A stretch of 64,000 nt of DNA from Micromonospora chalcea (GTDB lineage Bacteria > Actinomycetota > Actinomycetes > Mycobacteriales > Micromonosporaceae): the NCBI RefSeq assembly GCF_002926165.1, contig NZ_MAGP01000075.1, forward strand, positions 1 to 64,000, written 5' to 3'. The notes under the pieces were generated by a model. It was given only the letters and a program-made list of their open reading frames with translations, was not told the DNA's origin and made no database searches. The position numbers and the translations under genes were made by a program. This document shows, one piece after another, positions 4,402 through 43,455 of this stretch (its first letter is position 1; the number at the start of each line of letters is the position of its first letter).

Positions 4402-4412
4402 CGGCGGTGAGC

Positions 4413-27591: not shown

Positions 27592-30500
27592 TCACCGTCC
27601 GAGGTGGATGAACGCCGCCCAGGCCAGCGGCTGGGCGAGGTCGGCCCGAGAGCATTGGGACGCCAGCTCGACGGGCATCTCGGGCGGTGGCACCCGATCC
27701 GCGTCCAGCATCCACAGCTGTGCACGGTGCAGCGCCTCGGCCGGCTGGCACCCATCGACATGGAGGTGATGGTGCACCAGGTACATCAGCAGCGAGGTAC
27801 CGACGTCGGGTACCGACCACAGCGCCCCGAAGACAGTCCGGGCACCCGCCGCCAGGAATGCGGTGGCCAGGCTGAACGCCTCGTCGTGAAGACCGCCGAT
27901 CAGGCTCGTGGTGCAGGCCGCCAGGAAGACCTGCCCCAGTTCGAGTGCCGCGCGCCGCGACGCGTCGAGCAGGTGCCGAGCGGGTAGCTCGCCCCCGGCG
28001 AGCACCAGGGAGGAGTCCGCCGGGCGCGCGGGATCGACGCGGCCGTGGCAGGCCAGGTGCAGGACGGCCGGGCCGGAGGCGGTACGCATCCACGCCAGCA
28101 CCTCGTCGGGTCGGGCGAGACTGTCCGGGCCCTCAGACGGACCGCCCAGGTAGCGCCCCTGCGGATGGAACCGGTGGTGGACTGCTCGCGCTTCGGCGCC
28201 GGCGAAAGGCAGGTCGCCGAGGGGATCCCCGACCACGAGTGCCGACCGGGTGGACGTCGGTGGCTTGGTGGAGGAGGCGCAGAGCAGGCGCGCTGACGGA
28301 GTGTAGGAGACGACCACATCCTGTACGGCGTACCGCCGTACAGACGAGGTCTCCCGGTAGGCGGCGTGCCACGGCACGAGGCCGAGGATGCCCATCGGAA
28401 CCATGACCAAACGGGCCGGCCCTGCGGCACGCAGGTCCCGGCCGATCGTGACGACCTCCGCCATGGCGGCACGCCAGGCCCATCGGCACAGGTCATCCAG
28501 CGGTGAGCCGGACATGACCGACCCGGTCGAGCCCACAGGTCCCGCATCTCGAAGGGGTCCGGCCGCCGCGGGACCCAGCCCCGCAGTCAGCAACCGCCGC
28601 AGCGGTGACCCGGGGGTGACGAGTAGCTGGGGCAACTCGACCAGGAACGTCGCAGATCGGGCCGGTACGACGGCCGCGAATCCGGGCACGGCACCGGCTG
28701 CGGGGACCAGGTACACGATCGCGTCCGCGCCGACGTCGATAAGTGCGGCGCGAAGGTTCTCGACTCGAACCTGCGCCACCGGATCGTGGCCGGCGGCGTC
28801 CAGGACCCGCAGCACCCGCGTACGCAGGTCGTCGGGGACCTCATCGGCGGCCGCCACGGCGTCGAGCGGCCGACCGGTGACCTGGTCGCGTCCCAGTCCT
28901 TCTGTGCGCCGCCACTCGTCGGCCAGGTCGGACCGTCCGACCTCGTCGAGCACATCCGCCACCGTCCGGGACTCGGTCGCGGCGTGCAGTACGAGTCCCC
29001 GTCCCGCGTCCAAGGCGACGATGGCGTCGTCATCGGCCTGGTCCTGCAGGCACCAGCGGAGCACGGTGGCCGCGTCCACCGTGGCCTCCCGGGCCGCCTC
29101 CAGGGCATGGTCGGTGCCCGCCTGGAGAAGGACTCGCCGCGCATGGCCCGCGAGCGCGGCGAGCCCGAGTCGGCGAGTGCGCTCACGGTCGGTACCGCCG
29201 GCCAGCCGCAGCGCCCGAGCGTGGTCACGCGTCAAGTCGGTCCACAGCGGGTTCTCCGGCCCGCCGCACTCCGCCACCGCCACACCAAGGTGATCGGCGG
29301 CACGGGCGGCCGCGCCCCGGCTCCCCAGACCCAGCTCGGCCTGTGCCGCCAGCTTCCAGCTCACCGTCCGCGCCACGTGCCCGCGTGGCAGCCGTTCCGC
29401 CAGATCGCTGAGGTGGTCGGCCCACAGCCGCAGCATCCGCCCGTCGCCATGCAGCGCGGCGACACTCACCTGGGGGATGGCAGTGATGATCGCGTCGGCC
29501 ACCGACTGGTAGGGCAGCTCTCCAGGTGGCAGCGGACGCGGCGGCAGGGCGGCCGCCGGCCGATCGCCCGAAGCGAGCGCCGCGGCCGTCCGCAAGGCGC
29601 GGACCATCGGCTCCAGCGTCCGATCGGGGACGTACGCGTTGATCCGCCCGATCGTCTCCCGCATACCGTCGAGGTCACCGCCCGCGCCTCGCCCGGCCGC
29701 CCCCATGAGCATTGCCGCCGCGGGGAGGCCGACGCCGGGTTCGCCCTCGTCGGGGAGTACGTCGGCAGATCGTTCCGCCAGATCCATAGCGGCACCGAAC
29801 GCGCGCAGATCACCCGTGGTGGCCGCTCTGGTGTACAAGGCGTGGTACAGCAGCACTCGCAGCCGCGCCCCCTCGGTCCGCGCGAGTCTGGCGTCACGCC
29901 CGGCGCGTACCACCGCCTCGACTCCCGCGCCCGCCTCCGGCTCGACGCCAGTGGCGTGAAGGTACTGGTCGAGCAGTCCGGCTGCCGCGTCTAGTGCGCC
30001 CGCGATCCCTTCGGGCGGGGGGCCGGTCGACCGGCCCAGTGCGAGCAGCCGGCGCAGCTTCGCCACGTCGATCTCGGCCTGTGTCTCGCCGAAGTAGGCG
30101 AACTCGCCGTACAGCACAATGGCGGCGAGGGCCACGCGTCGTTCGGCGTCGGCGCCCACCCGATCGGTCAACGCCTCGTCGGCGTCGTTGAGCGCCGTAC
30201 GCAGGTAAACGGCGCCGGCTTGCGGATCATGGTAGGTGAGCAGCTCGTACCCGACCACGACCCGGAGGATGTGTGCCGCCAACAGGTCGTCGTCCGCCCG
30301 GCCGAGAGCCGCGACCGCGTCATCGGCGCACCCGATGGCGTTCCGGAGCGCCTCCGGCGCGCGGGCGAGCTGCCAGCACAGCAGGTGTGTCTCCCCGAGT
30401 GCCCGCCACACCGGCCCGCGGTCATCTGTCGACGACAACGCCTCGGCCAACACGGCACCGGCTTCCGTCAGCCCCTTGAGGTCACCGGTCGCGACCGCCT

Positions 30501-31437
30501 CCTGTCGCAGCAGGTCGGCCAGGCGGACGGCGACGGCGGGGTCGGGGTCGGCCTCCTGAACCGTCCGCCAACCCGAGATGGCCACACCCAGGTCAGCCGC
30601 GTTCCCGTCCAGTTCCCAGAGGGCTTCGTGCGCGGCGGCGAGAGCGCGGTGCAGTGAGATCCAGCCCGGCGTTCCGGGATCGCACGGCCCGAGTGCGCGC
30701 CGCGCAGCGGACGCGGCGATCTCGACGTGGGCCCGGTCCCGCTGGAGACCGGCTAGTTCCAGGTGGCCGCAGGCCAGATCCGCGGCGGCGATGGCGTAGC
30801 GGGACTCGATGGCGACGGGGAGCGCATCCAGTGCGGCCGTGAGCTCGGCGACGCCTCGGGTGAGGTCCTCCGTACACCTACCGGCATGGTCGTATCGCGC
30901 GAGCAGCGCCATTCCCCGTACCACCGCCAAGTGCGCCGCGTGATCCGAGGACGTGGAGACCAGGTGGATGTCTCGCAGCGTGCCGAGCGCCTCGTCCGCG
31001 TCCGCCGCGGCGGTCTCGGGCGGGAGTACGCTGTCCGCCCTCCGGGCGAGGAATCGATCCCAGACCGCCTCCCCCAGGTCCATTGCCACGTCATCCCGGT
31101 CCGTGTCGTCGGTCGGCCATCGCCGGTACGCGACCGTGAGATGGGAGACGGCGCCGTCATGATCCTTCGAGCCGTGGCCGAGCTTCGCCCGTGCCGCGAG
31201 CGCCAAGCCGAGCTGCCAGTGCCATAGCGCCGCATCCGGGTGGGCCTCGGCGGTGGTCACCGCCCGCTCCAGAGCATCGACGGCGGTGTCGAGGTCGGCC
31301 GGTTCGCCACCGATGTCGTACCGCTTCAGATGCGCGAGTCCAAGCATGCCGGACAGCCCGGGGAGGTCGGCACACGGTGGCGGCGCGGTGACGAGCGCAG
31401 CCAGCCGCGCGATCCACTCGTCCTCCTCGCTCACCAT
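27592..31437 (-). CDS. TPR-repeat protein with C-terminal CHAT (caspase-like) protease domain
   Basis: 1281-residue protein. Residues ~1-930 are helical repeats of TPR type, for example GMLGLAHLKRYDIGGEPADL and many AxxxxGxAL-like pairs. The C-terminal ~300 residues are a CHAT domain, a clan CD cysteine protease fold shared with caspases and separase. The domain holds MVPMGILGLVPWHAA, the catalytic His1131 in VLHLACHGRVD, and Cys1175 in VFLAACTTSL; both residues of the dyad are present. The end HRAQLWML, then QPLAWAAFIHLGR, is the usual CHAT terminus. The ATG at 31437 lies inside the last codons of the caspase gene (7-base overlap). CHAT proteases with TPR regions act as executioners in some defence systems; that role is inferred. 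Confidence 0.93.
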   Translation of the reverse strand: MVSEEDEWIARLAALVTAPPPCADLPGLSGMLGLAHLKRYDIGGEPADLDTAVDALERAVTTAEAHPDAALWHWQLGLALAARAKLGHGSKDHDGAVSHLTVAYRRWPTDDTDRDDVAMDLGEAVWDRFLARRADSVLPPETAAADADEALGTLRDIHLVSTSSDHAAHLAVVRGMALLARYDHAGRCTEDLTRGVAELTAALDALPVAIESRYAIAAADLACGHLELAGLQRDRAHVEIAASAARRALGPCDPGTPGWISLHRALAAAHEALWELDGNAADLGVAISGWRTVQEADPDPAVAVRLADLLRQEAVATGDLKGLTEAGAVLAEALSSTDDRGPVWRALGETHLLCWQLARAPEALRNAIGCADDAVAALGRADDDLLAAHILRVVVGYELLTYHDPQAGAVYLRTALNDADEALTDRVGADAERRVALAAIVLYGEFAYFGETQAEIDVAKLRRLLALGRSTGPPPEGIAGALDAAAGLLDQYLHATGVEPEAGAGVEAVVRAGRDARLARTEGARLRVLLYHALYTRAATTGDLRAFGAAMDLAERSADVLPDEGEPGVGLPAAAMLMGAAGRGAGGDLDGMRETIGRINAYVPDRTLEPMVRALRTAAALASGDRPAAALPPRPLPPGELPYQSVADAIITAIPQVSVAALHGDGRMLRLWADHLSDLAERLPRGHVARTVSWKLAAQAELGLGSRGAAARAADHLGVAVAECGGPENPLWTDLTRDHARALRLAGGTDRERTRRLGLAALAGHARRVLLQAGTDHALEAAREATVDAATVLRWCLQDQADDDAIVALDAGRGLVLHAATESRTVADVLDEVGRSDLADEWRRTEGLGRDQVTGRPLDAVAAADEVPDDLRTRVLRVLDAAGHDPVAQVRVENLRAALIDVGADAIVYLVPAAGAVPGFAAVVPARSATFLVELPQLLVTPGSPLRRLLTAGLGPAAAGPLRDAGPVGSTGSVMSGSPLDDLCRWAWRAAMAEVVTIGRDLRAAGPARLVMVPMGILGLVPWHAAYRETSSVRRYAVQDVVVSYTPSARLLCASSTKPPTSTRSALVVGDPLGDLPFAGAEARAVHHRFHPQGRYLGGPSEGPDSLARPDEVLAWMRTASGPAVLHLACHGRVDPARPADSSLVLAGGELPARHLLDASRRAALELGQVFLAACTTSLIGGLHDEAFSLATAFLAAGARTVFGALWSVPDVGTSLLMYLVHHHLHVDGCQPAEALHRAQLWMLDADRVPPPEMPVELASQCSRADLAQPLAWAAFIHLGR

Positions 31438-33377
31438 TCGGCCTCGACCGAGCCCGGCACCTCCGTCACCACCGGCACGACCGCTGTCGTCCAGTCACAC
31501 GCGCTCCCCTCCATCGTGCCGGCGTCACGATGGACCGCAGCCAGCCCGAGCCGACCGAGTAGACCGGAGACCACCAGCGGCGCCCTCGTTCGACCCGGCC
31601 ACGCCTCGTCCAGCGGCGGCAGCTCGAACGGTGACGAGCTGAACTCCTCTTCGGCCGCGAGGAGCACCAGCCAGTCCCGCGTCGTGGCGCCGGGCTCCAC
31701 CACGGATCCAGCGGGTAGCCGCAGCTCCACCGGCCGTCCGTAGAGCGCCGCGCCCACGTGCTTCGGCGCGACGTACGCCCCGGGGAAGAGGCCGGCGTGC
31801 ACGCGATGCCGCTCGGTGATGTCGAGCAGGACGCAGTGCAACCGACGGTCGCCGGCATTGCGGATCCGGACGAACACCGTCGGCGGAACCCACAGGTCGG
31901 CTTCCCTGCGGTACTGCAGGCGCAGCACGCCGTCGGCGCCCGGAAGCAACGGTGGGCGTTCCGCGGGCGCGGCCACCTCACCGGGCCTGGCCTCTACGAC
32001 CTCCAGCGTGACCACGTCAGCCAGGGCTGAGACGGGATTGGTGAGGGCTTTCACGCGCTTCACCCGGGCGATGTGCTCGAGCACGGCGGTCACCCGCCGA
32101 CCGCCGTCGCGGGCCACACCGGTCAGGTCATCGCAGAGCGGGAAGTCCTCAGCGTCACTGACGCGGACCCGGTCGGGCTCGGGCACGTCCAGGCGCAGTT
32201 CGGGCGTCCGCTCCTCGTCCGGACCGAGTATCCGCACGTGCGGCGACGGGCCACCGGCAGGCCCGGCCGTCTCGAGGGCCGCCAGCACGAGGTCCAAAGT
32301 TGGCTGGTGTGCCGCGTCCACCCCGACGGTGATCGCCGGAGTCGGCACCCGGCTGAGCACCACCGGGTACTGCAGATCGTCATCGGGCTCCCAGCCAAGG
32401 GGACGGACCACGCTGCGCTCGGGAAGAATCCGGACGACACGCGCCTCCCGAACTTCTGGCCCGGGTACGGCCACCCGTATGTCGTCGTACCCGTCCGCCA
32501 GGAGGCCGTGGCAGCTGCCAACGTCGATCTCCCAGTCACGCCGCACGCGGCGCATTCGCATACCGCCGGCCGACGGCGTCACCTCACCACCCAGGAACGG
32601 CTGGTCGGCGATACCCGGACTGGCGGGCGCCAGCTGCGGGACCTGCGCGGACACGTACCGTTCGACCTCGCACCGAGCAGCCGTCAGCAAGTCACGATAC
32701 GTCGCCGCCGATCCAAGGCGTCGCATGGCGCTGATCAGGGACCAACTGAACAGTCCGTGGTACCGACCGTCCACCCACGTCTCGACGGCCGTCTCGGAGG
32801 AGCGGCAGGCGGCCAGTTCCACGTACTGCGCGGGTGGCCTGGAGGCAGCGGCCAGCAGATCCGGCAGCAACGCCTCGATCAAGGGTATGTCGGTCACCGG
32901 TGGAAGCGCCCGGCTCAGGTTGCGGGTGCCGCTCTGCGAGTGGCAGCTGTCCAGGACGACCACCAGGTGGACGCCACGCGCGGCGATCTCGCCGAGCAGC
33001 AGCGAGAGGTGCTTGTCGGAGAGTTCGGGGACACCATCGGAGCGGCTGTCGTGGCAGACGAGCGTCTGCATCTCGGCGCTCGGCTCCAGATGCCAGAGTT
33101 CGGCGGGGACCGCCATCCGCGAGCCGTGCCCGCTGAACCAGAAGATGGCCGTGTCCCCCGGTCCGGCTCGTCCGAGGTGGTCTCGAAGGCCGACGATGAT
33201 CGCCGTCCGCGTGGCCTCCTGGTCACGCAGCACGCGGATCGACGACGGGTCCTGCTCCGGGCAACGTGTCTTCAGAAACTGCTCGGCCAGTGTCACGTCG
33301 TTGACGGTTCCGCGCAGTCCCGGTGCCGCGCGGTAGTGGTCGATCCCGACCAGCAACGCGAGGACTTTGCGGCTCAT
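31431..33377 (-). CDS. Caspase-family (peptidase C14) protein with long C-terminal extension
   Basis: 648-residue protein. Residues 1-250 are a caspase-type p20/p10 domain: LALLVGIDHYRAAPGLRGTV at the start, catalytic His84 in WFSGHGSRM, and catalytic Cys145 in VVVLDSCHSQSG. Both dyad residues are intact. A further ELAACRSSETAVE corresponds to the p10 strand. Residues ~250-648 form a second module of beta-rich appearance, with the segment LRLQYRREADLWVPPTVFVRIRN and then LRLPAGSVVEPGATTRDWLVLL; related C14 proteins in actinomycetes use such regions as adaptors. The ATG overlaps the stop of the cyclase-like gene by four bases, and its own stop overlaps the CHAT gene, so the three proteins are made together. 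Confidence 0.92.
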   Translation of the reverse strand: MSRKVLALLVGIDHYRAAPGLRGTVNDVTLAEQFLKTRCPEQDPSSIRVLRDQEATRTAIIVGLRDHLGRAGPGDTAIFWFSGHGSRMAVPAELWHLEPSAEMQTLVCHDSRSDGVPELSDKHLSLLLGEIAARGVHLVVVLDSCHSQSGTRNLSRALPPVTDIPLIEALLPDLLAAASRPPAQYVELAACRSSETAVETWVDGRYHGLFSWSLISAMRRLGSAATYRDLLTAARCEVERYVSAQVPQLAPASPGIADQPFLGGEVTPSAGGMRMRRVRRDWEIDVGSCHGLLADGYDDIRVAVPGPEVREARVVRILPERSVVRPLGWEPDDDLQYPVVLSRVPTPAITVGVDAAHQPTLDLVLAALETAGPAGGPSPHVRILGPDEERTPELRLDVPEPDRVRVSDAEDFPLCDDLTGVARDGGRRVTAVLEHIARVKRVKALTNPVSALADVVTLEVVEARPGEVAAPAERPPLLPGADGVLRLQYRREADLWVPPTVFVRIRNAGDRRLHCVLLDITERHRVHAGLFPGAYVAPKHVGAALYGRPVELRLPAGSVVEPGATTRDWLVLLAAEEEFSSSPFELPPLDEAWPGRTRAPLVVSGLLGRLGLAAVHRDAGTMEGSACDWTTAVVPVVTEVPGSVEAEW

Positions 33378-34681
33378 CCGCGTCGTCCTGGGGGCACATG
33401 GATCCAGGCATGCTCGACGAACTGCTTCTCCGGCAGCTCGACGGTGGCCTCCTCGAACTGGTCTGGCAGTGGCGGCTCGACGGAGTGCTGGATGACATCG
33501 CGGTAGAGCAGGTCCGGAACGCCGAGGACGTAGTCGGCATGCGGGTTGTCCCGCAGCGCAGCCCGCAATGGCGGACTGTCGAGGATCCGGTGTACGGCAA
33601 TCGCCGCGGTGCCCACCCATCCGCTGTCCGCTGGCTTCATCAGTCCACGGTGGAGGGCCACCCGGAGCCGGACCCGCTCGGCCGCGGAAAGAAGCCGGTT
33701 CGTCCGCGACAACGCCTCGGCCAGACCGCCCACCAGGCGTGGGATCACCACCGACTCGTCGATGCCGACCGGCAGTACGGCGAACTGACCGTCGCCCTGT
33801 GGCTGCAGGGCGATCGCAGTCTCGTCCAGACCGGCGGCGCGTCGCGCGTCGGACAACACCTGGACCAGCCAGGACTGGGTCCGCTCGGCGAGGTCGTTCG
33901 ATCGGCGGCTGTAGCTCGCGACGTCCGTTGCCATGCACAGCCGTACCGCCGCCGAGCTCGGTTCCGCCGGCCCGGGCAGAGCTTCCTCGAATCTGACAGA
34001 GTCCCGGACGGTGGCCTGGTGTCGGACCATCCGGCCTCGGCCGGGCACGGCCATCTCGACACGGAGTCCAACGCGTCCGGACACCGTCGTGGCAGCTGCT
34101 GGAAGCTCCACGAGCGCGTGCATTCCATAGGTCAGGGGCAACAGGCTCTGACCGGTCGGATCCGGAAAAGTCCAGCCGAACTGGCGCCGCCCGGTTCCGA
34201 AGGACCAGGCACGCGGCCGGCCCGTGCGAGGTGCCAGCCGGAGCAGCCAGCCGGGGCGGGCGGCCCCGACTGCCCGCTCGGCGGCGGGAGTCAGCGGGCG
34301 CGGTGAATCGAACCCGTAGTTCAGTCCGAGAGCACCTCCGTCAGCGTCGACGCGAATCGCGGCCGCTTGTTCGTCATCTAGGGCAACCTCGAAGCGAGCC
34401 AGCGTGTAACGCCGGCTTCCCCCCGACGGATCCAGGTCGAACGCGATGATCATGCCGTAGTAGCGCCGCCCGCCGACGTCGGCACGCCGTCGCAGCGGAG
34501 CCGGCAGTTCCTCGGCCGGGATGGGAAAGAGCAGGGGGCGTCCGATACTCACGGTCGCCGGGTCTGCCGGGTAGTTCGGGTCCTCCGGATCCCTGGGCCG
34601 ATCAGTCGACAACGCCGTGTGGGCAAGTACGTCGTCCGGCCGCAGCAGTTCCTCGCCGGTTACCACGTCGTCGCGGGTCAA
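33374..34681 (-). CDS. Class III nucleotidyl cyclase-like protein, degenerate, in protease operon
   Basis: 435 residues. The N-terminal ~230 residues look beta-rich and have no match I recognise. Residues ~245-400 resemble the class III cyclase catalytic core: MATDVASYSRR with Asp253, LQPQGDGQFAVLP with Asp297, VRLRVALHRG, and GWVGTAAIAVHRILDS. The two Asp are 44 residues apart, as the metal ligands are in mammalian adenylyl cyclase (D396/D440). The base-selecting Lys and the transition-state Asn are not visible, so activity is uncertain; it may be a nucleotide sensor. The TTG start at 34681 is supported by GGAGG five bases away (complement of 34687-34691). It is first in the caspase-CHAT operon. 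Confidence 0.7.
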   Translation of the reverse strand: MTRDDVVTGEELLRPDDVLAHTALSTDRPRDPEDPNYPADPATVSIGRPLLFPIPAEELPAPLRRRADVGGRRYYGMIIAFDLDPSGGSRRYTLARFEVALDDEQAAAIRVDADGGALGLNYGFDSPRPLTPAAERAVGAARPGWLLRLAPRTGRPRAWSFGTGRRQFGWTFPDPTGQSLLPLTYGMHALVELPAAATTVSGRVGLRVEMAVPGRGRMVRHQATVRDSVRFEEALPGPAEPSSAAVRLCMATDVASYSRRSNDLAERTQSWLVQVLSDARRAAGLDETAIALQPQGDGQFAVLPVGIDESVVIPRLVGGLAEALSRTNRLLSAAERVRLRVALHRGLMKPADSGWVGTAAIAVHRILDSPPLRAALRDNPHADYVLGVPDLLYRDVIQHSVEPPLPDQFEEATVELPEKQFVEHAWIHVPPGRRG

Positions 34682-35154
34682 ACTGCCCTCCAGTTCGTCG
34701 CCCGATGGTCGATTGCAGCTATCGGCACGCCCCGAAAAGGCAATCGACCCAGGCTCTTATGTCACGCGCGCGTTACACCATTGGTTGACGTATTGGACGC
34801 CTGCGAGTAACAGATCCTTGCCATACCTCGGCGAGGAGCAATACCGAGTGTCAACCAACCGACAACAGCACGACACGGTTGGACGAGGCGTCATCCGCCG
34901 CCCCGCGCGACTCTCACCGTTCCGGACCGCGCCCGTGAAGATCCCGCAGAAATACGGAGTCCTGCGAATCCCGCCATGCCAGGCTGCGGCGGACCTGGAT
35001 ACGGAGGAGCGACGTGGACATACGATCACCCCGATCGCCGATAAGGCCGATCGCCTCAACCTGCACCGCGAGGCGGCGCGGCGTTGCGGGCAGCCGCCGG
35101 ATGTCGCACACTTGCTGGATCACCAGCGGACCACACTCGCACGACGGGGTCGAC
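34682..35154. promoter_or_regulatory. Divergent control region between protease operon and Crp/Fnr gene
   Basis: A 473-base gap without a convincing gene; it is less GC-rich than its flanks. On the plus strand TTGACG (34785-34790) stands 17 bases from TAACAG (34808-34813), a plausible promoter toward the Crp/Fnr gene. On the minus strand a TTGACA is at 34854-34849. TTGGTTGAC (34781-34789) and GTCAACCAA (34850-34858) form a 9-bp inverted repeat 60 bases apart that contains both -35 boxes, suggestive of paired operator sites. A short open stretch starting at ATG 34977 has no support. Confidence 0.5.
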
Positions 35155-35853
35155 GTGGACGGTGCCGACCGGCTCCCGGGTGAGCGTGCCACCGGATTCC
35201 TGGGCCGTCTCCCCCCGACGACGCGCCAGGAGGTGCTCGACCACGGTCGGCCCCGACGGTACGAGCCGGGTGACCGGATCCTTCGGGAAGGCGACCGCGA
35301 CCGCCACGTGATCCTGCTGACCAGCGGATTCGTCAAGGTGACCACCCACATCGAGGGGATCGAGGCGCTCGTCGCCATCCGGGGTGCCGGAGACATCGTG
35401 GGTGAGGCCGCCGCCCTCTCCGACCAGCCCCGAATGGCCAGCGTGATCGCGTGCGGCACAGTCACCGCGCGGCTGGTCACCGCAGAGGCGTTCGGCACGG
35501 TGCTGATCCGGTATCCCGATGTCGCACGGCTCGTGACCATCACGCTGGCCGAGCGGCTGCGCTGGGCCAATGACCGGCGGGCCGACTTCGTGGCCTTCCC
35601 GGTCGAGGTGCGTCTCGCCCGCGTACTCGTCGAGATATCCGTACGGTTCGGGCGGCGGGCCGCTCACGAAGCTGTCGCCATCGACGTTCCGCTGAGCCAA
35701 CGCGAACTCGCCACCATGGTCGGAGCCTCGGAGGACACCGTCCAGAAAGCCCTACGGGCACTACGGCGGGCGGGACTGATCCACTCCACCTACCGCCGAC
35801 TCACCGTCCTGGATCCGGCCGGCCTGCGGCGGATGTCACGCCACGTCCGGTGA
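35155..35853 (+). CDS. Crp/Fnr-family transcriptional regulator
   Basis: Regulator of 232 residues. The N-terminal cyclic-nucleotide-binding fold contains RRYEPGDRILREGD, ILLTSGFVKVTT and the phosphate-binding-cassette-like GDIVGEAAALSDQPRMASV, in which the Glu and Arg that hold cAMP in Crp are both present. A long dimerisation helix (VTITLAERLRWANDRRADFV) precedes the winged HTH, VPLSQRELATMVGASEDTVQKALRALRRAGLI. The start is uncertain: I prefer GTG 35155, which gives normal family length; ATG 35101 would add 18 unusual residues. It stands between the divergent protease operon and the AAA operon and is the obvious candidate to control both. With a cyclase-like gene next door, cyclic nucleotide sensing is an attractive inference. 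Confidence 0.88.
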   Translation: MDGADRLPGERATGFLGRLPPTTRQEVLDHGRPRRYEPGDRILREGDRDRHVILLTSGFVKVTTHIEGIEALVAIRGAGDIVGEAAALSDQPRMASVIACGTVTARLVTAEAFGTVLIRYPDVARLVTITLAERLRWANDRRADFVAFPVEVRLARVLVEISVRFGRRAAHEAVAIDVPLSQRELATMVGASEDTVQKALRALRRAGLIHSTYRRLTVLDPAGLRRMSRHVR

Positions 35854-36119
35854 GCCCGCATCGGCCGAGCCGCTTGGCCGGCCGCCGAACGGACCTGTAG
35901 TCCGCTGGCCATTCGGTCGCCCCTTTGACCTCTTCGGTCGACGCGAAACAAAGGTCGTCGCCGCAAATATTCAGCAAATGATTCAACTTGGCTAATCCCG
36001 TGAGGGGGACCTCCACATCGTGCCGCGCGAGACTGCCGACTAGACCAACCGCCGATTTTCAGCTGCCCATTCCCCTTCGGCGACCCATCGCCCGTCTTCT
36101 CTGACCCCACCGGAGAATC
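35854..36119 (+). promoter_or_regulatory. AT-rich upstream region of the AAA operon with tandem repeat
   Basis: The 266-base gap contains an unusually AT-rich stretch (about 35947-35997). Inside it GCAAATATTCA (35963-35973) is followed directly by GCAAATGATTCA (35974-35985), a tandem repeat with one inserted base. This is a good candidate for a regulator site or promoter for the five-gene operon that starts at 36120. I cannot assign clear -35 and -10 boxes. Confidence 0.45.
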
Positions 36120-37892
36120 ATGTCCGACGTCAACCAGCTCCGCGGCCAGCTCCGCAGCATCGAAAATCAGATCTTCAACCTGAGGCAGAACATCCTCAAG
36201 GTGGACGACACGGTCGGCGCAATCGAGCAGCAGCAACAGGCCACCCGAAACGACCTCGTTGAGCTGCGCCTGGCCTTCGCCCGCTTCGCGCAGCAGGCCG
36301 AACGCACCGCGAACGTCCACCGTGCCGAGACCGCAATCGGCGCCCTCAAGAACGACATCGAGCACCAGTTCGGCCACCACAAGGTGGTACGCCGAACCGC
36401 CGTCGGAATGCTGCAGTCCTTCGACGTCGGACTGGTCAGCGAGGACACGGTCCAGGCGGTCGGTGAGCAGTTGATGATCCAGACCCCGCGCTATTGGCTT
36501 GCGCCGGTCCTCGTCGCGCTTGCCGCCTGGGTTGGCGACGATCCCGACCTGTGCGTCCGGGCGGTCGAGGAGGCGTACCGACGGTCCCCGGAGCGCACCT
36601 CCCTGCTGATGACACTGATCTTGCGTCGGCAAGGGCGACGGGCGAGTGCAGTCCGATGGCTGAGGCACTACCTTGATGCCCAGGACCCGGCGGCGCTCAA
36701 CCGTGAATTCGCGTTGATTCTGGAGGCGATTGCGCACGGCGCCTTCGGTCCCGATGCGTTGACGCTCACCCGGGAACGACTCGAGTCGTGGCGCCGCACC
36801 CTGCTCGCCGACGAAGCATCCACGCACGCCCAACTCAACCGGTGGCGGCGCGAGATGGAAACGTTCGTCCGGCCCGAAGGCCTTCGAGAGGATTTCCCTC
36901 GACTCGGCGCGTCCTCGCCGCAGTGGCCGCAGCTGGAACGCGCGCTCGCCGGAGCTGAGGCACACCAGTCCATCATCGATCGGTACGTCGCCGTGCTGAA
37001 CACCCCGCCGTCGCCCACCGACCGGATCGAGGATGCCATCGACGACCTCCTCGACATGTTGGTCGAGGAGTACGACCCCGAAGAACTTCCGCTACGGCGC
37101 GAACTGGCGGCGAAGGAGGCGATCGTGGCGGCCGACGGGGATCTTGAGGAGGCAGCCCGTTCGACACCGTTCCAACTGGCCGCACTGAAGGACGTGAGGG
37201 ACTACCTGACCATCCAGACCGACTCTGCCCTCGATCCCGACGGCATTGGGGTGTCGCCACAGACCCAACGGCTCGCCCTGGCGTTCTGCCACGACTGGCT
37301 CAGTGACGCCCACAGCGCGTTCACCCGGGACTACCGCCTGGGATTGCCCTCCACGGTCACGGTGACCCTCGACCTGCGCGAACGCGCCGACGTGACGGGC
37401 TTCAAGCCACCCCCGTGGACCGGCTCCTTCGAGCGCCCGCTGGACGCGCTGGAGCGCTCTCTGACCTCGCACTGGACACGGCACACCGAGCCGTTCCTCG
37501 CGGGTCTCGCCTTCGACTGGCGCAAGCGAATCATCGCGCCGATCGTGGTACTGCTCCTCGTCGCCGTGTTCGGATCTGCCGTCGCCGGCCTCGCAGTGGG
37601 CCTTGTGATTACCGTCGGGGGTGGTGTGGCCTGGGGCCTCCTGCTCCGCGCCCAGGCCGACTCCGCAGCCGAGAAGCAGAACGCCGCCCGTGCTCGGCTC
37701 GCGGCAGCCCGGAAGCGGTCACTGGTCGAACTGCGAGCTGCCGGCGCCGAACTGACCGACTGGACCACCCGGTTCACAGACGCTGACAGCAGGGAGTCGA
37801 ACGTACGGGCTCTGATTGCCGACCTTGCCACCGCGGGGGCGCCGGGAAGCCCGCACGAACGCCGTGTCCCCGGTCGAGCAGAGGAGGCGTGA
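36120..37892 (+). CDS. Coiled-coil membrane protein, first gene of AAA operon
   Basis: 590 residues, family not recognised. Residues 1-75 are a strong N-terminal coiled coil (QLRSIENQIFNLRQNILKVD, many Gln and Leu at heptad positions). A long helical body follows, including WLAPVLVALAAWVGDDPDLCVRA, which resembles helical-repeat proteins. Around residues 465-500 there are two adjacent hydrophobic helices (IIAPIVVLLLVAVFGSAVAG and LAVGLVITVGGGVAWGLLL), then a basic, Ala-rich coiled coil (AEKQNAARARLAAARKR) to the end. So most of the protein is probably cytosolic with a hairpin anchor in the membrane. The ATG follows GGAG by five bases. The next gene begins one base after the stop. Confidence 0.8.
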   Translation: MSDVNQLRGQLRSIENQIFNLRQNILKVDDTVGAIEQQQQATRNDLVELRLAFARFAQQAERTANVHRAETAIGALKNDIEHQFGHHKVVRRTAVGMLQSFDVGLVSEDTVQAVGEQLMIQTPRYWLAPVLVALAAWVGDDPDLCVRAVEEAYRRSPERTSLLMTLILRRQGRRASAVRWLRHYLDAQDPAALNREFALILEAIAHGAFGPDALTLTRERLESWRRTLLADEASTHAQLNRWRREMETFVRPEGLREDFPRLGASSPQWPQLERALAGAEAHQSIIDRYVAVLNTPPSPTDRIEDAIDDLLDMLVEEYDPEELPLRRELAAKEAIVAADGDLEEAARSTPFQLAALKDVRDYLTIQTDSALDPDGIGVSPQTQRLALAFCHDWLSDAHSAFTRDYRLGLPSTVTVTLDLRERADVTGFKPPPWTGSFERPLDALERSLTSHWTRHTEPFLAGLAFDWRKRIIAPIVVLLLVAVFGSAVAGLAVGLVITVGGGVAWGLLLRAQADSAAEKQNAARARLAAARKRSLVELRAAGAELTDWTTRFTDADSRESNVRALIADLATAGAPGSPHERRVPGRAEEA

Positions 37893-37893
37893 C

Positions 37894-38082
37894 ATGGAGA
37901 TGCCCGAACCGGCCACGGATCTCGTGGCCGATGCGCCGGCCTCCGGCGTTCCGTGGGCCCGGCAACCGATCGCCGCGGCGAAGCGCAGCACCAGCCGGGC
38001 CCGGAGGATGGTGGAGAACCTTCCCGACTGGGAGCCGATGCCACCAGGGGAACTCGTCGTCCGCCGCCCGCGCCGGTACTGA
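37894..38082 (+). CDS. 62-residue small protein in AAA operon
   Basis: Small hydrophilic protein starting MEMPEPATDLVADAP. The middle holds a basic helix (AAAKRSTSRARRMVENLPDW), the end is Pro-Arg-rich (RRPRRY). GAGGAGG (37881-37887) precedes the ATG by six bases, and the ATG follows the previous stop by one base. The next gene's ATG also follows one base after this stop (TGACATG at both junctions). I do not recognise a family; the conserved operon packing supports a real product, probably an adaptor. Confidence 0.65.
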   Translation: MEMPEPATDLVADAPASGVPWARQPIAAAKRSTSRARRMVENLPDWEPMPPGELVVRRPRRY

Positions 38083-38083
38083 C

Positions 38084-38662
38084 ATGTCCAGCGCCGACAA
38101 CGGATATCAGCGATGGGCGAAGTTCCTGGAACTGTGGCGGTCTGGTGAGGACGCCGATTCGAGGTATCTCCCGCCCCTGGCCGAGGACGACTATCCGGCC
38201 GACGTCTGGGTCAGGCTCGTGCGCCGCATCGTCGAGGCGATGGCGACTCGGCTGAATGCGTGGGAACGAGGTCTCCTACAGGCCCTCCTCGCCGCGCAGG
38301 ACGAGTTCGAGGTGGCACGCGCACTCACCCAGTCCCGAGGGAGCCTCACCCCCATCCGCGCGTTGACCGGCCATCCCGGCCTGCCCGCAGACCTGTCCCG
38401 ACAGCTGCGCGCCGAGGTCGACAGGCAGATCCGCTCGGTCCAGCGTGCGCTCGAGGAGACCGTCGAATCCGCGCACCGCGTCGGAGCCAACGACCGGCTC
38501 GTCCAGGCGCGACTGCGTACGTTCCGTGAGAACGCGGTCACCGAGGTGCTGATGCAGGCGCCGGACCGCCGGGGCGGCTGGGACGGCTGGGCCACCGAGC
38601 CGGCGGACCGACCACGTCGGCGGTTGATCGTTCGTCGTCACCCCGACAGACCCGAGGAGTAG
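38084..38662 (+). CDS. 192-residue helical protein in AAA operon
   Basis: Hydrophilic, mostly alpha-helical protein; family not recognised. It begins YQRWAKFLELWRSG, continues with LVRRIVEAMATRLNAWERGLLQ, and carries the acidic/basic helix LRAEVDRQIRSVQRALEETV, which may pair as coiled coil. No catalytic motif or membrane segment is visible. The start is fixed by the TGACATG junction with the preceding gene. The AAA ATPase gene follows two bases after GAGGAG-containing end codons, so co-translation is likely. By position it could be a partner or substrate adaptor of the ATPase. Confidence 0.75.
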   Translation: MSSADNGYQRWAKFLELWRSGEDADSRYLPPLAEDDYPADVWVRLVRRIVEAMATRLNAWERGLLQALLAAQDEFEVARALTQSRGSLTPIRALTGHPGLPADLSRQLRAEVDRQIRSVQRALEETVESAHRVGANDRLVQARLRTFRENAVTEVLMQAPDRRGGWDGWATEPADRPRRRLIVRRHPDRPEE

Positions 38663-38663
38663 C

Positions 38664-40226
38664 GTGTCCCACTACGACGAGGCCCGCCGCGACCTCGACA
38701 GCTACATCGCGGCCCGGGTGCCGCTGATCGGCATTCGCAGTGCCGAGCAGACCCGTGCCATCCGGCTGATCCGGGAGGTCGCTGGCAGTAGCCAGCGCGT
38801 CAACCTGCCGTTCTGGATTTATACCCGGGCGACCGGGCTTAGGGACCTACGCACCAGAAATGCGGTGCAGGAGGATCGATCCCTGGTCGCGGCCATGGAT
38901 TTCGCCGCGGCCCAGATGTCCCGGCGCGCCCAGGCGACCATGGTCTTCGTCGAACCGGACGACCTGAGTGTCGATTCGCCGGTCACCCGTCACATCGCCG
39001 AACTCGCCCGGCTCGCCGACGACCAGTCCGGCAGTGTCGTGCTGATCACGGACACACCGATCTGGAGCGGCCTGCAACGCCTCGGGATGAGTGTCTCGTT
39101 GGAGCTGCCCAACGCGGCCGAGATGTACGAGGTCGTGGTCGACTTCCTTAAGGATCAACAGGGTTCGGTGACCATCGACTGGATCGAGGCGGACGCCCGC
39201 CAGGTGGCGGACTTCCTGGTCGGCGTACCGGAAGGCACCGCCATCAACATCCTGGCCACGATCGCCGCGAGCGGCCGCCTCCGCCGCGAGGACGTCGACC
39301 GTCTCGCCGAGGTCAAGGACAAACACTTCTCGGATCTCGCCGGCCTCGTCCGCGTACCGCTGGACCGCTCCGCGCACGAGATCGGTGGGCTGGCCACCCT
39401 GCGGCACTGGTTGCACCGGCGCCATCAGGTCATGTGCGCTGACCTGCGGAACACCGGGCTCCGGCCGCCTCGGGGCGTTCTGCTCGTCGGGGTGCCCGGG
39501 TGCGGCAAGTCTCTGTCCGCAAAGGCGGTAGCTGCCCAGTGGCGGCTGCCGCTGTACCGGCTCGACTTCGCGGCCATCCTCGGAATGTACGTGGGGCAGT
39601 CCGAGGCACGGCTACGGGAAGCCCTGGAGATGGCAGACCGTACCGCCCCATGCGTGCTGTGGATCGACGAGATCGAGAAAGGGCTCGCCGGCCAGCACGA
39701 CAGCACCGGCGTGGGCAGGCGGCTGGTCGGACAGTTCCTGTTCTGGCTCCAGGAATCCCGGTCGCGGGTGTTCGTCGTGGCGACGTCCAACGACGTCCGC
39801 TCACTCCCGCCGGAACTGCTCCGGAAGGGCCGTTTCGACGAACTCTTCTTCGTCGACCTGCCCGACGACACCGAACGCGCCGAGATCATCCGGCTCTACC
39901 ACCGCAAGTATGTCGGCTCCGAGCCTGCCCCGGATCTGCTCGACCGCCTCGTCTCCCTCTCTGAGGGTTTTGCCGGCTCCGACATGGAAGCCGCTCTCAA
40001 GGAGGCTGGATTCGAGGTGCTGGTCAACGGTCATGCCGGTCTGAGCAGTGACTTCATCATCGACACGTTCATGGACACGATCCCGCTCAGCCGCAGCCAT
40101 CCCGAGGAGATTGCCGAGATACGCGCGTGGGGCCGGGACCGCGCTGTCCCGGCCGGTGCGGCGAGCCTTCCCGACTCATCCGAATCCGGGGCACGCCGAC
40201 GACTGATCGTCGCCGGTGAGGCGTGA
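38664..40226 (+). CDS. AAA ATPase of Ycf46 type
   Basis: 520 residues. The N-terminal ~235 residues match the pattern of Ycf46-like proteins (RVPLIGIRSAEQTRAI, LPFWIYTRATGLRD, and a degenerate P-loop-fold half, ATMVFVEPDD). The C-terminal AAA module has Walker A GVPGCGKSLSAKA at about residues 275-285, pore-loop region ILGMYVGQSEARLREAL, Walker B CVLWIDEIEKGL near 330, sensor 1 VFVVATSND near 370, and the arginine finger segment LLRKGRFDELFFVDLP. There is no HEXXH, so it is not an FtsH protease. It should be a hexameric motor that remodels a protein partner. The GTG at 38664 follows GAGGAG. Ycf46 proteins are known from plastids, cyanobacteria and scattered bacteria and have poorly known roles. 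Confidence 0.87.
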   Translation: MSHYDEARRDLDSYIAARVPLIGIRSAEQTRAIRLIREVAGSSQRVNLPFWIYTRATGLRDLRTRNAVQEDRSLVAAMDFAAAQMSRRAQATMVFVEPDDLSVDSPVTRHIAELARLADDQSGSVVLITDTPIWSGLQRLGMSVSLELPNAAEMYEVVVDFLKDQQGSVTIDWIEADARQVADFLVGVPEGTAINILATIAASGRLRREDVDRLAEVKDKHFSDLAGLVRVPLDRSAHEIGGLATLRHWLHRRHQVMCADLRNTGLRPPRGVLLVGVPGCGKSLSAKAVAAQWRLPLYRLDFAAILGMYVGQSEARLREALEMADRTAPCVLWIDEIEKGLAGQHDSTGVGRRLVGQFLFWLQESRSRVFVVATSNDVRSLPPELLRKGRFDELFFVDLPDDTERAEIIRLYHRKYVGSEPAPDLLDRLVSLSEGFAGSDMEAALKEAGFEVLVNGHAGLSSDFIIDTFMDTIPLSRSHPEEIAEIRAWGRDRAVPAGAASLPDSSESGARRRLIVAGEA

Positions 40227-40239
40227 CGAGAGGAGTGAA

Positions 40240-41178
40240 ATGAGCGACGACCGAAAGCCCGACAGCGGACCGATCTGGAACGTACGGTCCCTCGTCGGCG
40301 ACCTCGCCGACGATCTGCCGAAGGCCGCACCGGCACCTCCGATGAGAGTGCCCGCGGCGCCCCCGGCCACGCTGTCCACTCCCGCTCGGCGGGTGCTGGA
40401 GAGACCCGACGATTCAAACGAAACGCCGCCCGGCCCGATCAGCGACGACGCGCTGGAAACCGCGGAGTCTCCTGACCCCCAGCCGCGCGGCGGCTGGATC
40501 AGCGAGGGCGAGACGCCCCGGCCGAGCAGCGGTGATTCGATGCGGCTGTTCACCCTGTTGCTCGGCATCGCGGTCGTGGCGTCGGTCCTGATTCTCATCG
40601 TCGTCGGCCTGGTTGCCGGTCGGGACGAAGACCTGTCCGGAGCCGTACCTCCACCGATCCCGGTGACTTCGACGGAAGATCTGCGGGACGCCGAGACGCC
40701 CAGCGAGGTCGTATCGCACCAGGAGGAGCAGGCTCTCCCCGCCGCCGTCGCGGATCCGGAGGAGGAAGCGCTTGCCCGCCTGGAAGAACTTCATCGGCAG
40801 GACCTGCACACAGTGCCCCTCGACGGCCAGTACGCCGCCCAGCTCGCATCGAAGACGGTGGGGATCGTCGACACCAACCAGGTCGCTGCCAACGGCTCAC
40901 ACACCTTCTACGCCCGTGACATCCTCGAGGAGCACGCCAGCCTGAGGCAGCGGTTCGGTGGCGAGGCTCGGATCGTGCTGCTGTTGAGCACCGACTACGG
41001 GCGAAAGCAGCAGTTGGACGGGCAGCCGCTCTGGGTAACCTTCGCACTCCTGCCTAATCTGAAAAAAGAGGCTGTCACGGGGTGGTGTGCGCGGCAGTTC
41101 CCACAGATGCGCGGCGCCGCGCTGGAGAACCGCTGCATACCGCGCCGGTTGAATCCACCCGGCACGTCCACCGGCTGA
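40240..41178 (+). CDS. Single-pass membrane protein, last gene of AAA operon
   Basis: 312 residues, family not recognised. Residues 1-100 are a Pro-rich, disordered-looking cytosolic part; one TM helix (LFTLLLGIAVVASVLILIVVGLVAG) spans about 103-127; then a linker and a compact extracytoplasmic domain of ~130 residues (LASKTVGIVDTNQVAANGS, ARIVLLLSTDYGRKQQ, LPNLKKEAVTGWCARQFP) that contains two cysteines which could pair. Type II-like topology puts this domain outside, where it could sense the envelope. The ATG has AGAGGAG five bases upstream. It ends the operon. Confidence 0.78.
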   Translation: MSDDRKPDSGPIWNVRSLVGDLADDLPKAAPAPPMRVPAAPPATLSTPARRVLERPDDSNETPPGPISDDALETAESPDPQPRGGWISEGETPRPSSGDSMRLFTLLLGIAVVASVLILIVVGLVAGRDEDLSGAVPPPIPVTSTEDLRDAETPSEVVSHQEEQALPAAVADPEEEALARLEELHRQDLHTVPLDGQYAAQLASKTVGIVDTNQVAANGSHTFYARDILEEHASLRQRFGGEARIVLLLSTDYGRKQQLDGQPLWVTFALLPNLKKEAVTGWCARQFPQMRGAALENRCIPRRLNPPGTSTG

Positions 41179-41451: not shown

Positions 41452-41853
41452 ATGTGGGCGGACGAGGCCGCGCTGGACGCGGCGGCACGCCGGCTCGACG
41501 AATGGGAGTCGTCCCTGGCCGACCGGGCGGCACGGGCCCGCGACCTGTCCGCCCGCACCCAGGCGCTGACCGGCACCGCGCGCAGCGCCGACGGACTGGT
41601 CGAGGTCACCGTCGACTCGTCCGGGCTGCTCACCGACCTGCGGCTGGACGAACGCGTCCGGCAGCACTCCGCCGCACACACCGCCCGGCAGATTCTCGCC
41701 GTCAGCCGGGACGCCCGCGCCGACCTGCTGCGACGGCTCACCGAGGCCACCACCGCGGCACTCGGCGCGGACGACCCGGCCGGGCAGGCGATCGTCGAGT
41801 CCCACCAGCGGCGGTTCGGCCCCGACCCGGGCACGTCGGATGCCGCCCGGTGA
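41452..41853 (+). CDS. YbaB/EbfC-family protein of a type VII secretion toxin locus
   Basis: 133-residue protein of the YbaB/EbfC DNA-binding family in the variant found in actinomycete ESX-substrate loci. An N-terminal helix (LDAAARRLDEWESSLADRAA) leads to the diagnostic beta region SADGLVEVTVDSSGLLTDLRLD, followed by a C-terminal helical part (TARQILAVSRDARADLLRRL). GGGAGGG precedes the ATG by six bases. It overlaps the next gene by 14 bases. The family usually binds nucleoid DNA, but in these loci the protein may act as a chaperone-like partner. Confidence 0.8.
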   Translation: MWADEAALDAAARRLDEWESSLADRAARARDLSARTQALTGTARSADGLVEVTVDSSGLLTDLRLDERVRQHSAAHTARQILAVSRDARADLLRRLTEATTAALGADDPAGQAIVESHQRRFGPDPGTSDAAR

Positions 41854-42160
41854 CGGCCTCCAGGTCGACCCGGACGACCTGACCGCGCACGCCGCACACC
41901 TCGGCCGCTGCGCCGACAGCATCGACACCGCCCGGCAGGCCGGCCAGCACGTCAGGCTGGGCGCCGACGCGTACGGGCAGCTCTGCGCGATCATGCCGGC
42001 CCTGCTCGACGGTCTCCAGCGGATGCTCACAGACGGCATCGGCACCGCCGCCACGTCGGTCCGGGACACCGCCGGGAAGCTGCGGTCGAGCGCCGAGCGC
42101 TACCGCGCCTCCGACGCGCACGCCGCCGACCTGCTCGACCGGGTACGGCAGCGGCGGTGA
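41840..42160 (+). CDS. EspC/WXG100-like type VII secretion-associated protein
   Basis: 106 residues, two long helices in an ESX-type hairpin: VDPDDLTAHAAHLGRCADSID forms the first, VRDTAGKLRSSAERYRASDAHAADLLDRV the second. The pattern fits the EspC-like family (type VII secretion target). Such small proteins pair with the larger substrate encoded next to them and are secreted together. The start at 41840 overlaps the YbaB gene, and its stop overlaps the toxin gene by four bases (GTGA). Confidence 0.78.
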   Translation: MPPGDGLQVDPDDLTAHAAHLGRCADSIDTARQAGQHVRLGADAYGQLCAIMPALLDGLQRMLTDGIGTAATSVRDTAGKLRSSAERYRASDAHAADLLDRVRQRR

Positions 42161-43455
42161 CCACGAACCCACTGGTCGCCGCCGCGGCGGACTCCGGTCC
42201 GAGTCCCTGGGCCGGCGTGTGGATCTGCGAGGACATCGAACTCATCGCCCAGGGCGTCCGCACCGGCAGCTGGATCGACGGCAGCCTCGGCGTGGTCAGC
42301 GCCGGCCTCGACGCGCTCGCGCTCGTGTCCGACCCGGCCGGGGTCCTCCTCCAGTACGGCATCGCCTGGCTCATCGAACACGTCAAGCCGCTCAGCGAAG
42401 CCCTCGACTGGCTCGCCGGCGACCCCGCCGAGATCACCGCGCACGCGCAGACCTGGCGCAACGTCGCCGCGTCCCTGCGCGAGGACGCCGCCGAGCTGGC
42501 CCACGCCGTACGCACCGAGGTCGCCGGCTGGACCGGCGCCGCCGCCACCGGCTACCGCCGCTGGGCGAGCGAACAGCAGCAGGCCATCACCGGGCTCGCG
42601 CAGGGCGCCGAGGCGATGGCCGCGATCACCGAAGGCGCCGCCGGCCTGGTCGCGGCAGTGCGGCTGCTGGTCCGCGACGCCATCGCCGCCTGCGTGTCCC
42701 GCCTGATCGTGTACGCGGCCGAACTGGTCGCCACGGCGGGGCTGGCGACGCCGCTGGTGGTGGAGCAGGTGACGACGACAGTGGCGTCGTGGGCGGCGCG
42801 GATCGGGCGGTTGTTGCGGGGGTTGCTGGCAAGTCTGCGGCGGCTGATTCCGGAGATGCGGCGGCTGGGTGAGCTGATCGGCAAGCTGAAGGAGGCGCTG
42901 CGCCGCCTCTCGTCCGCCGGACCGGAGAAGACTCCTGGCAGCGGTGGCCCCGGGCGCCATAACGGTCACCCGACGAGGCCCCCGGACTTCGACCCGGGCA
43001 AGCAGCATGGTCCCCTCGGCGCCGACTTCCGGCCCGAGGTGAATGACCCTCGCGGCTTGTTCGACGACAAGGAAAGAGCGGTCGGTGACCGCCTCGCCGA
43101 GGAAGGGGACATGGTCCATCCACGGGAACGTGACGACAGCCTGTACAAGCTCAAGAATCCGGACTCGATGGTGCGGTCCGGTCCAGACGATCCCGGCGTG
43201 GTGACCGAATTCAAGACCCTCGACCGCTCCAGCAGCGAAGCCGTACGCCGTAACATCATGGCCGCCGGTAAGCAGGTCGACCAGACCGGCGGCGGCAACG
43301 CGGTCATCGACGGACGCCCGGTAAACCTGAGCGAGGAGGAGGCCCGGCGGGGTTTCGCACGAGCGCTGGGTCAGCACAGACAGCACGGCAGCGCCATGCC
43401 CGGCCAGGTCCGAATCATCCTCGGCGACAACCGAATAATCACGCTTCCCGACTAG
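42157..43455 (+). CDS. Type VII-secreted polymorphic toxin with CdiA-C-like nuclease domain
   Basis: 432 residues. Residues ~1-250 are helical and Ala-rich, with the ESX-like stretch AHAVRTEVAGWTGAAATGYRRW, whose W-x-G matches the turn of WXG-type secreted proteins. A Gly/Pro-rich linker (~255-285) leads to the C-terminal ~150 residues: FDDKERAVGDRLAEEGDMV, then a PDSMV and VVTEFKTLDRSSSEAVRRNI, and finally QVRIILGDNRIITLPD. The E...D...EFK pattern is that of the CdiA-C tRNA nuclease group with a PD-(D/E)xK fold. An immunity candidate starts five bases after the stop. I infer an antibacterial toxin delivered by a type VII system encoded elsewhere. Confidence 0.8.
   Translation: MTTNPLVAAAADSGPSPWAGVWICEDIELIAQGVRTGSWIDGSLGVVSAGLDALALVSDPAGVLLQYGIAWLIEHVKPLSEALDWLAGDPAEITAHAQTWRNVAASLREDAAELAHAVRTEVAGWTGAAATGYRRWASEQQQAITGLAQGAEAMAAITEGAAGLVAAVRLLVRDAIAACVSRLIVYAAELVATAGLATPLVVEQVTTTVASWAARIGRLLRGLLASLRRLIPEMRRLGELIGKLKEALRRLSSAGPEKTPGSGGPGRHNGHPTRPPDFDPGKQHGPLGADFRPEVNDPRGLFDDKERAVGDRLAEEGDMVHPRERDDSLYKLKNPDSMVRSGPDDPGVVTEFKTLDRSSSEAVRRNIMAAGKQVDQTGGGNAVIDGRPVNLSEEEARRGFARALGQHRQHGSAMPGQVRIILGDNRIITLPD

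Follow-up and report, generated by a model that had tools for sequence, protein, structure and literature searches.

An AAA ATPase operon linked to caspase-like and CHAT protease genes in Micromonospora chalcea and Streptomyces: a candidate gated protease switch

In Micromonospora chalcea, two predicted proteases of clan CD are encoded side by side and face an operon with an AAA ATPase, which raises the question of whether the two arms belong to one system and, if so, what such a system would do. Here, we analysed a stretch of 64,000 nucleotides (contig NZ_MAGP01000075.1 of assembly GCF_002926165.1, positions 1 to 64,000; hereafter the window), in which the locus occupies positions 27592-41178. 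Three overlapping genes on the minus strand encode a protein with a CHAT protease domain (CHAT, 27592-31437), a metacaspase-like protein (CASP, 31431-33377) and a cyclase-like protein (CYC, 33374-34681), with overlaps of 7 bp between CHAT and CASP and 4 bp between CASP and CYC. On the plus strand, a Crp/Fnr-type regulator (CRP, 35014-35853, start codon uncertain) is followed after 266 bp by CC (36120-37892), S1 (37894-38082), S2 (38084-38662) and AAA (38664-40226), separated by 1-bp gaps, and by TM (40216-41178). Depending on whether TM starts at GTG 40216 or at ATG 40240, after AGGAG, it overlaps AAA or begins 13 bp downstream of it. An earlier note on this DNA had described three overlapping minus-strand genes, a divergent Crp/Fnr gene and a five-gene operon, with two different clan CD proteases in one operon; the map and junctions are as it described, and both proteases are identified by Pfam (PF00656 for CASP, PF12770 for CHAT). 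We find that the AAA arm is linked to such proteases in many genomes and read the locus, with about as much confidence as doubt, as a gated switch of two proteases, in which disturbance of a membrane/ATPase complex would lead them to cleave cell proteins.

Linkage of the AAA arm to CASP and CHAT

We compared 37 loci that carry CC, from Micromonosporaceae, Streptomyces and two metagenome-assembled genomes (MAGs), after duplicates had been removed (L068 = L045, L161 = L078); a CC-profile scan of named genomes yielded 31 loci. CASP was found in 31 of the 37, CHAT in 31, both in 29 and at least one of the two in 33, and these gene counts are depressed by contigs that end inside the locus (L054, L059, L064, L065 and L072). 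Genome G067 (L043) carries the full set, CHAT-CASP-CYC facing CC-S1-S2-AAA-TM, without CRP, and its only two CHAT matches genome-wide both lie at this locus. Since the same arrangement recurs in other species, chance assembly is unlikely. CC is patchily distributed: it was found in 5 of 150 genomes of the family and in 4 of 396 of the phylum, and two of the latter are divergent. When the AAA profile was used as the entry, 7 of 296 class genomes matched. The four strong matches (G000, G482, G681 and G721, the last being L078) all came with CC, CASP and CHAT, three of them (G000, G482 and G721) already in the CC set and G681 new, while the neighbourhoods of the three weak matches (E ~1e-76) showed no match to CC, CASP or CHAT. 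For the background, 15 family genomes (~125 Mb) gave 93 matches to PF12770 and 45 to PF00656, that is, ~0.016 and ~0.008 per 22 kb. These genomes were hand-picked (the CC and CYC genomes and four of the same genus) and some genes give two matches; because the sample includes the CC and CYC genomes, the background rate is if anything too high. Four Streptomyces genomes (genus group g50) held 12 CHAT and 8 caspase matches. A genetic linkage of the AAA arm and clan CD proteases well beyond the source genome is supported by these results.

The pairing occurs in several layouts. In five loci, a CHAT-CASP-CYC operon is divergent from CC; in most Streptomyces loci, CASP is divergent from and CHAT convergent to the CC operon, and CASP adjoins the c5/CC operon divergently in 24 of the 27 Streptomyces loci; in L045 and L047, CHAT is convergent to AAA with a caspase gene upstream; and in L075 and L082, a large CHAT gene stands alone downstream. 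In a tree of 79 CHAT domains (33 from AAA-arm loci, 8 from CYC loci and 38 controls), 8 changes of the AAA-arm label are required, with starred branches forcing 5 or more; for 52 caspases (31, 6 and 15, respectively), the tree requires 5, of which 3 or more are forced; gains and losses are indistinguishable in both. The controls were hand-picked (40 higher-scoring unlinked CHAT and 20 unlinked caspase matches; filtering by profile and length left 38 and 15 of them), and the control CHAT of L116 is the same gene as the CYC-locus CHAT of L048, so this row is not independent. The layouts also differ between the groups, and we read trees and layouts as indicating that the AAA arm was joined to CHAT and caspase genes more than once.

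Several observations weigh against a single two-armed switch. The earlier note had proposed that the arms form one system and that their co-occurrence be checked across genomes. This check was run, and the linkage holds from the AAA-arm side (33/37 with either protease, 29/37 with both) but fails in reverse. Full-length CYC (at least 45% identity) occurs in 8 of 150 family genomes (G000, G018, G031, G047, G058, G067, G068 and G098), with CASP or CHAT nearby in all eight and both in five, but with the AAA arm in only two, so that the protease arm often stands without it (6/8). The AAA arm is likewise missing beside four diverged CYC copies (29-37% identity; L048-L051), of which L048 alone showed CHAT. 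Four of the 37 loci, L072 (a 6-kb contig), L046, L079 and L080, showed neither protease, so the AAA arm can also stand beside other partners; in the flanks of the last three, no protease was seen by the CHAT and CASP profiles, nor by Pfam in a partial set of 15 neighbour genes (6, 8 and 1, respectively). In genomes G019 and G125, the AAA operon is accompanied by a CHAT that differs and by a caspase that is more distant, and in G114 by neither. In both MAG loci (L079 and L080), the AAA arm is preceded by an FtsK/SpoIIIE-like gene (scanned by Pfam in L079 only), and in L079 a gene with a TIR domain lies 2 kb downstream from the TM-like gene. The 37 loci are not independent, since 27 are from Streptomyces and most of these share one synteny. 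Because L043, L056 and L074 each have a second CHAT gene in their flanks (3 of the 33 domains), the number of changes in the CHAT tree is inflated. Finally, the order in which the proteases would act, CHAT before CASP, is inferred by analogy only.

Part of this pattern would be expected if the arms were separate systems that merely share a defence island, their association reflecting clustering rather than function. CHAT and caspase genes adjoin in loci without the AAA arm (L040, L042 and L044), six of the eight full-length CYC genomes have none, and the window itself holds type I restriction-like and kinase genes at 57356-62887. On the other hand, the divergent position of CASP in 24/27 Streptomyces loci, the pairing in several layouts and the retention of at least one protease in 33/37 loci ask for a partner fixed so closely that island clustering alone seems unlikely as a cause, and we consider this explanation unlikely.

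CC, S1, S2 and AAA recur as a block

Over the 37 loci, S1 was found in 32, S2 in 35 and AAA in 32, so that CC, S1, S2 and AAA form a recurrent block. In 34 of the 37, CC is immediately preceded by another core gene, c5, which is not present in the window, L052 and L053. TM is confined to six loci including the window, all from Micromonosporaceae. In the window, no Pfam family reached its cut-off for CC, S1, S2, TM or CYC, and CC, S1, S2 and c5 are four recurrent protein families without such a match.

The AAA protein was assigned to the classical AAA ATPases (Pfam PF00004, E 5.9e-31) with an N-terminal part of ~240 residues. Walker A, Walker B and the Arg finger RKGRFD are present in 32/32 proteins including that of the window. 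An aromatic pore loop, (Y/F)(V/L/W)G, was read by eye in the 32 aligned rows (MYVG in the window); a first search pattern for it matched 10/32 proteins. Pfam gave no peptidase domain in this protein, and the solved structures nearest to it in sequence are Cdc48/VCP-like. Thus, of the label "Ycf46-type AAA" given earlier, the classical AAA domain, of Cdc48/PAN-like kind, stands, whereas the Ycf46 part is not borne by the searches.

CC (590 residues) was modelled with a mean predicted local distance difference test (pLDDT) score of 82.3 as a long N-terminal coiled coil followed by a helical solenoid. It had been called a membrane-anchored coiled-coil protein; the model agrees with the coiled coil, and the anchor is corrected to two adjacent hydrophobic segments (residues 467-485 and 486-504), which perhaps form a hairpin. 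A fold search with CC gave no PDB match at E<=0.001, and a fold identity was dropped, the best match having E 0.028 with TPR-like solenoids on top. According to their reading frames, S1 is a protein of 62 residues with the conserved motif LPDWEPxPPGE and S2 one of 192 residues. TM is predicted to be a single-pass protein, with a hydrophobic segment at residues 107-125 and a conserved C-terminal part.

S2 and AAA end in similar basic-hydrophobic tails (plus strand, 38612-38659 for S2, which contains RRRLIV, and 40191-40223 for AAA). The pattern RR[RIVLMT][IVLMTFH] within the last 20 residues, which was chosen after the tails had been seen, matched 31/31 AAA and 32/34 S2 proteins. It matched 0/30 CHAT, 0/30 CASP, 0/6 TM, 0/31 S1 and 3/36 CC proteins and, among the 291 remaining called proteins of 100 residues or more in the same loci, 7. 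Frequent ends are SPxERRV or SPFEGRTV for CC, and VRRP or VQR for S1; none of these fits the pattern. For c5, the pattern lies near the N-terminus in 30/33 proteins, and with 42/260 in a 70-residue control this is a weaker case. Caspase cleavage as the main explanation of the tails was set back, the AAA tail being present also in the caspase-less loci L046, L075, L079, L080 and L082; because the tail is kept there, a docking motif would be the simpler reading than a cleavage site. RR-hydrophobic sequences that resemble the tails of AAA and S2 are also present at the N-termini of the two FtsK/SpoIIIE-like proteins (L079:5917-8931 and L080:749-3709).

These proteins bring to mind a second explanation, in which the AAA arm would be a type VII-like secretion or envelope machine (FtsK/SpoIIIE motor, EccA-like AAA, membrane coiled coil), served in its maturation or quality control by the proteases. 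In L079 and L080, the FtsK/SpoIIIE-like gene stands just upstream together with a gene for a small protein with a hydrophobic end, and directly 3' of TM in the window (41452-43455) there are YbaB-like, EspC-like and WXG100-like genes, perhaps a type VII substrate cluster. However, the genes of this cluster are in no neighbour family common to at least three loci, and no further type VII component appeared among the part of the neighbour genes scanned with Pfam. A distant CC relative adjoins genes read by eye as SPFH and zinc-ribbon (L088), but distant CC relatives are only ~26-30% identical, and we regard a secretion machine as quite unlikely. This relative (L088:6362-11298, ~30% identity), from a 2.2-Mb genome of the same phylum, also adjoins a gene for a 63-residue protein that ends like S1 (FPDWDLHPP).

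Proteases and exchangeable partners

CHAT (1281 residues) carries its protease domain at the C-terminus (residues 983-1280; PF12770, E 1.7e-45), and CASP (648 residues) a caspase domain (PF00656, E 3.3e-17) followed by a C-terminal region for which no Pfam family was found. The catalytic dyads are as first reported from the letters, H84/C145 in CASP (FSGHG, LDSCH) and H1131/C1175 in CHAT (LACHG, LAACT). By domain and dyad, CASP is a predicted peptidase of family C14 (caspase/metacaspase) and CHAT a predicted CHAT peptidase. By sequence, the closest PDB chain to CASP is metacaspase-1 (7qp0, E 1.6e-9), and the PDB relatives of CHAT are Csx29/TPR-CHAT (E ~3e-8). The TPR part of the former name TPR-CHAT was not borne out, as Pfam gives no TPR at E<=1 across the 1281 residues. 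At AAA-arm loci, the His/Cys dyad is kept in 33/33 CHAT and 31/31 CASP domains; among the 8 CHAT domains of CYC loci, His is kept in 6 and Cys in 7, and in the 38 control domains His is kept in 37 and Cys in 38. A PCaspase cascade was reportedly described by Steens in 2024. According to the accessible part of PMC6426788, caspase homologues of prokaryotes cleave their targets after residues with a positive charge, Arg or Lys.

The name "cyclase-like" for CYC (435 residues) has no Pfam support, and a sequence search of PDB gave no match; it is the structure model that bears the name out, in that residues 241-433, after a beta-rich N-terminal part, fold as a class III nucleotidyl cyclase, similar to 7r65. 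Asp253 and Asp297 are invariant in 37 aligned rows, and by comparison with class III motifs they are likely to be the metal ligands. CYC would thus be classed with the class III cyclases by modelled fold and these two residues. The position that we take, by eye and from the same motifs, to hold the usual transition-state Asn reads Ile in the CYC of the window, so cyclase activity is uncertain. CRP matches the Pfam families cNMP_binding (E 4.4e-17) and HTH_Crp_2 (E 1.6e-17). In the divergent region between CYC and CRP, the inverted repeat TGTCAC-N6-GTTACA (34760-34777) is a candidate Crp/Fnr operator, the sole match in the window to TGTNACN6GTNACA at up to one mismatch, where 0.80 would be expected. 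Since no such palindrome turned up in relatives, regulation by CRP is no more than a lead.

Crp/Fnr genes are located next to CYC or in its vicinity in the window, L038, L041, L044 and L052. Nevertheless, CYC was found in only 5 and CRP in only 2 of the 37 CC loci, and CYC in none of the 27 from Streptomyces; because so few loci carry them, CYC and Crp/Fnr are optional add-ons and not core. A developmental death or differentiation programme, in which CYC would make a cyclic nucleotide, Crp/Fnr would read it and the proteases would come on in mycelial ageing or sporulation, draws on the cyclase fold with its invariant Asp pair, on these neighbouring Crp/Fnr genes and on the palindrome, but is improbable in view of these counts, the lack of the palindrome in relatives, the Ile at the catalytic Asn position and the patchy distribution of CC.

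Where Micromonospora loci have CYC, sometimes with CRP, other loci have a RES-domain gene in its place. RES toxins degrade nicotinamide adenine dinucleotide (NAD). A RES-domain match lies by CHAT in 20/37 loci, in 18 of them on the strand of CHAT, at its start or immediately before it, and in two divergently, and Pfam confirms RES in the two loci scanned (L062 and L087). Upstream of CHAT in L087 (714-3400), a weakly macro-like gene (E 0.004, under the cut-off), a gene of unknown kind and a RES-domain gene stand in a row, a possible NAD/ADP-ribose toxin cassette. In L045 (Allorhizocola; same contig as L068), a LuxR-type regulator with AAA_16 and TPR matches lies between the caspase gene and the AAA operon (2835-5786). 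From gene content, the locus looks like a constant gate with variable outputs.

Known systems, surroundings and a possible mechanism

Among known defence systems, IetAS consists of the AAA ATPase IetA and the subtilisin-like protease IetS. The present locus is similar in that a stand-alone AAA ATPase is encoded with separate proteases. The AAA domain matches IetA in PADLOC (E 4.8e-25), and this match spans the AAA domain only and reaches 73 bits against an NCBIfam cut-off of 510. In contrast to IetAS, CC, S1, S2 and c5 are extra here, and no S8/subtilisin or IetS match was seen among the system proteins (nine scanned with PADLOC; seven plus S1 and S2 with Pfam). Pycsar combines the cyclase PycC with a cNMP (cyclic nucleotide monophosphate)-binding effector. 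CYC is similar in fold to 7r65 and has no PycC profile match in PADLOC, and CRP, unlike a Pycsar effector, joins its cNMP-binding domain to a Crp helix-turn-helix (HTH), with no TIR and no hydrophobic segment.

CHAT proteases act as immune effectors in SAVED-CHAT (type III CRISPR), which gives immunity by a proteolytic cascade according to the accessible part of PMC11229360, and as Csx29 in the type III-E Craspase. Here, no SAVED, gRAMP or other CRISPR effector was matched among the proteins scanned, CHAT reaches 64.2 bits with the Csx29 model against a cut-off of 300, and the sole CRISPR-type PADLOC matches are weak ones of the CRP HTH to CasR, Csa3 and CARF regulators. In Canu, a caspase-activated nuclease defence, the caspase is a specific endopeptidase encoded with partners, as far as the accessible text tells (PMC12799240); the encoding of a caspase-family protease with partners is shared, whereas here there is no nuclease family among the system proteins by Pfam and there are a second protease (CHAT) and an AAA module. 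The systems of Kaur et al. 2020, in the part of the paper accessible, are NTPase-thresholded or membrane-linked caspase/cyclase conflict systems enriched in multicellular prokaryotes (PMC7159879). The multi-peptidase/EACC1-caspase systems among them share caspase and cyclase modules and an NTPase or membrane link with our locus; CASP differs in reaching only 31.1 bits with the NCBIfam EACC1-caspase model against a cut-off of 140, and the words CHAT and Ycf46 are absent from the accessible main text. No MoxR-type or vWA family of the MoxR-vWA (VMAP) ternary systems exceeded its cut-off among the system proteins, and no Pfam match named CATRA appeared among the system and neighbour proteins scanned. 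The earlier statement that no described system of this exact composition is known holds in the literature searched, in which we recognised no such description, subscription papers being mostly outside its reach. The parts are of known kinds, and the composition appears new to us.

In the surrounding window, third-position GC is 0.76-0.84 in the called system genes (27592-41178) and at least 0.92 in 15 of the 21 genes called to its left, as would be expected of an island acquired by horizontal transfer; the single tRNA of the window, tRNA-Ser at 11455, lies 16 kb from the locus. The region 57356-62887, 16 kb away, holds an HsdR-like type I restriction gene (SWI2/SNF2, HSDR_N) and a Ser/Thr kinase gene (PADLOC model PD-T4-6, E 1.1e-96) with neighbours, and is a probable second defence cluster. 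Another Ser/Thr kinase of 1151 residues, with WD40 beta-propeller matches, is encoded at 49344-52799.

In the gated two-protease switch, CC would hold the complex at the membrane, and AAA and S2, ending in the same RR-hydrophobic tail, would dock on a common partner. The AAA ring could thread or remodel the complex and so hold back or release CHAT. The membrane-held complex would keep CHAT, and through CHAT also CASP, off, or else deliver both. Phage or membrane damage would disturb it and set off a two-step proteolysis by CHAT and CASP in series, and the resulting growth arrest or death would limit the phage or another intruder. In Micromonospora, the cyclase, with or without Crp/Fnr, would set the expression or the threshold of the protease operon through a cyclic nucleotide; in Streptomyces, the RES-domain gene beside CHAT would supply an extra effector.

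In animal apoptosis, caspases act in series under an ATPase platform. Tentatively, and with more doubt than we attach to the switch itself, the locus could represent a new class of bacterial machine for immunity or death, in which an AAA unfoldase complex tethered to the membrane gates two caspase-clan proteases in series, with AAA, S2 and, where present, c5 joined by one repeated RR-hydrophobic tail and with swappable add-ons (cyclase plus Crp/Fnr, or a RES toxin). In this reading, the Arg-rich tails may double as cleavage sites, so that an Arg/Lys-cutting caspase would dismantle its own gate and the machine would fire irreversibly. Loci in culture-collection strains (e.g. L052, L053 and L057) open the link between the AAA machine, the order of the proteases and death or phage resistance to direct testing. 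Here, in two large families of antibiotic producers, the genes of a bacterial ATPase module adjoin those of two predicted caspase-clan proteases.

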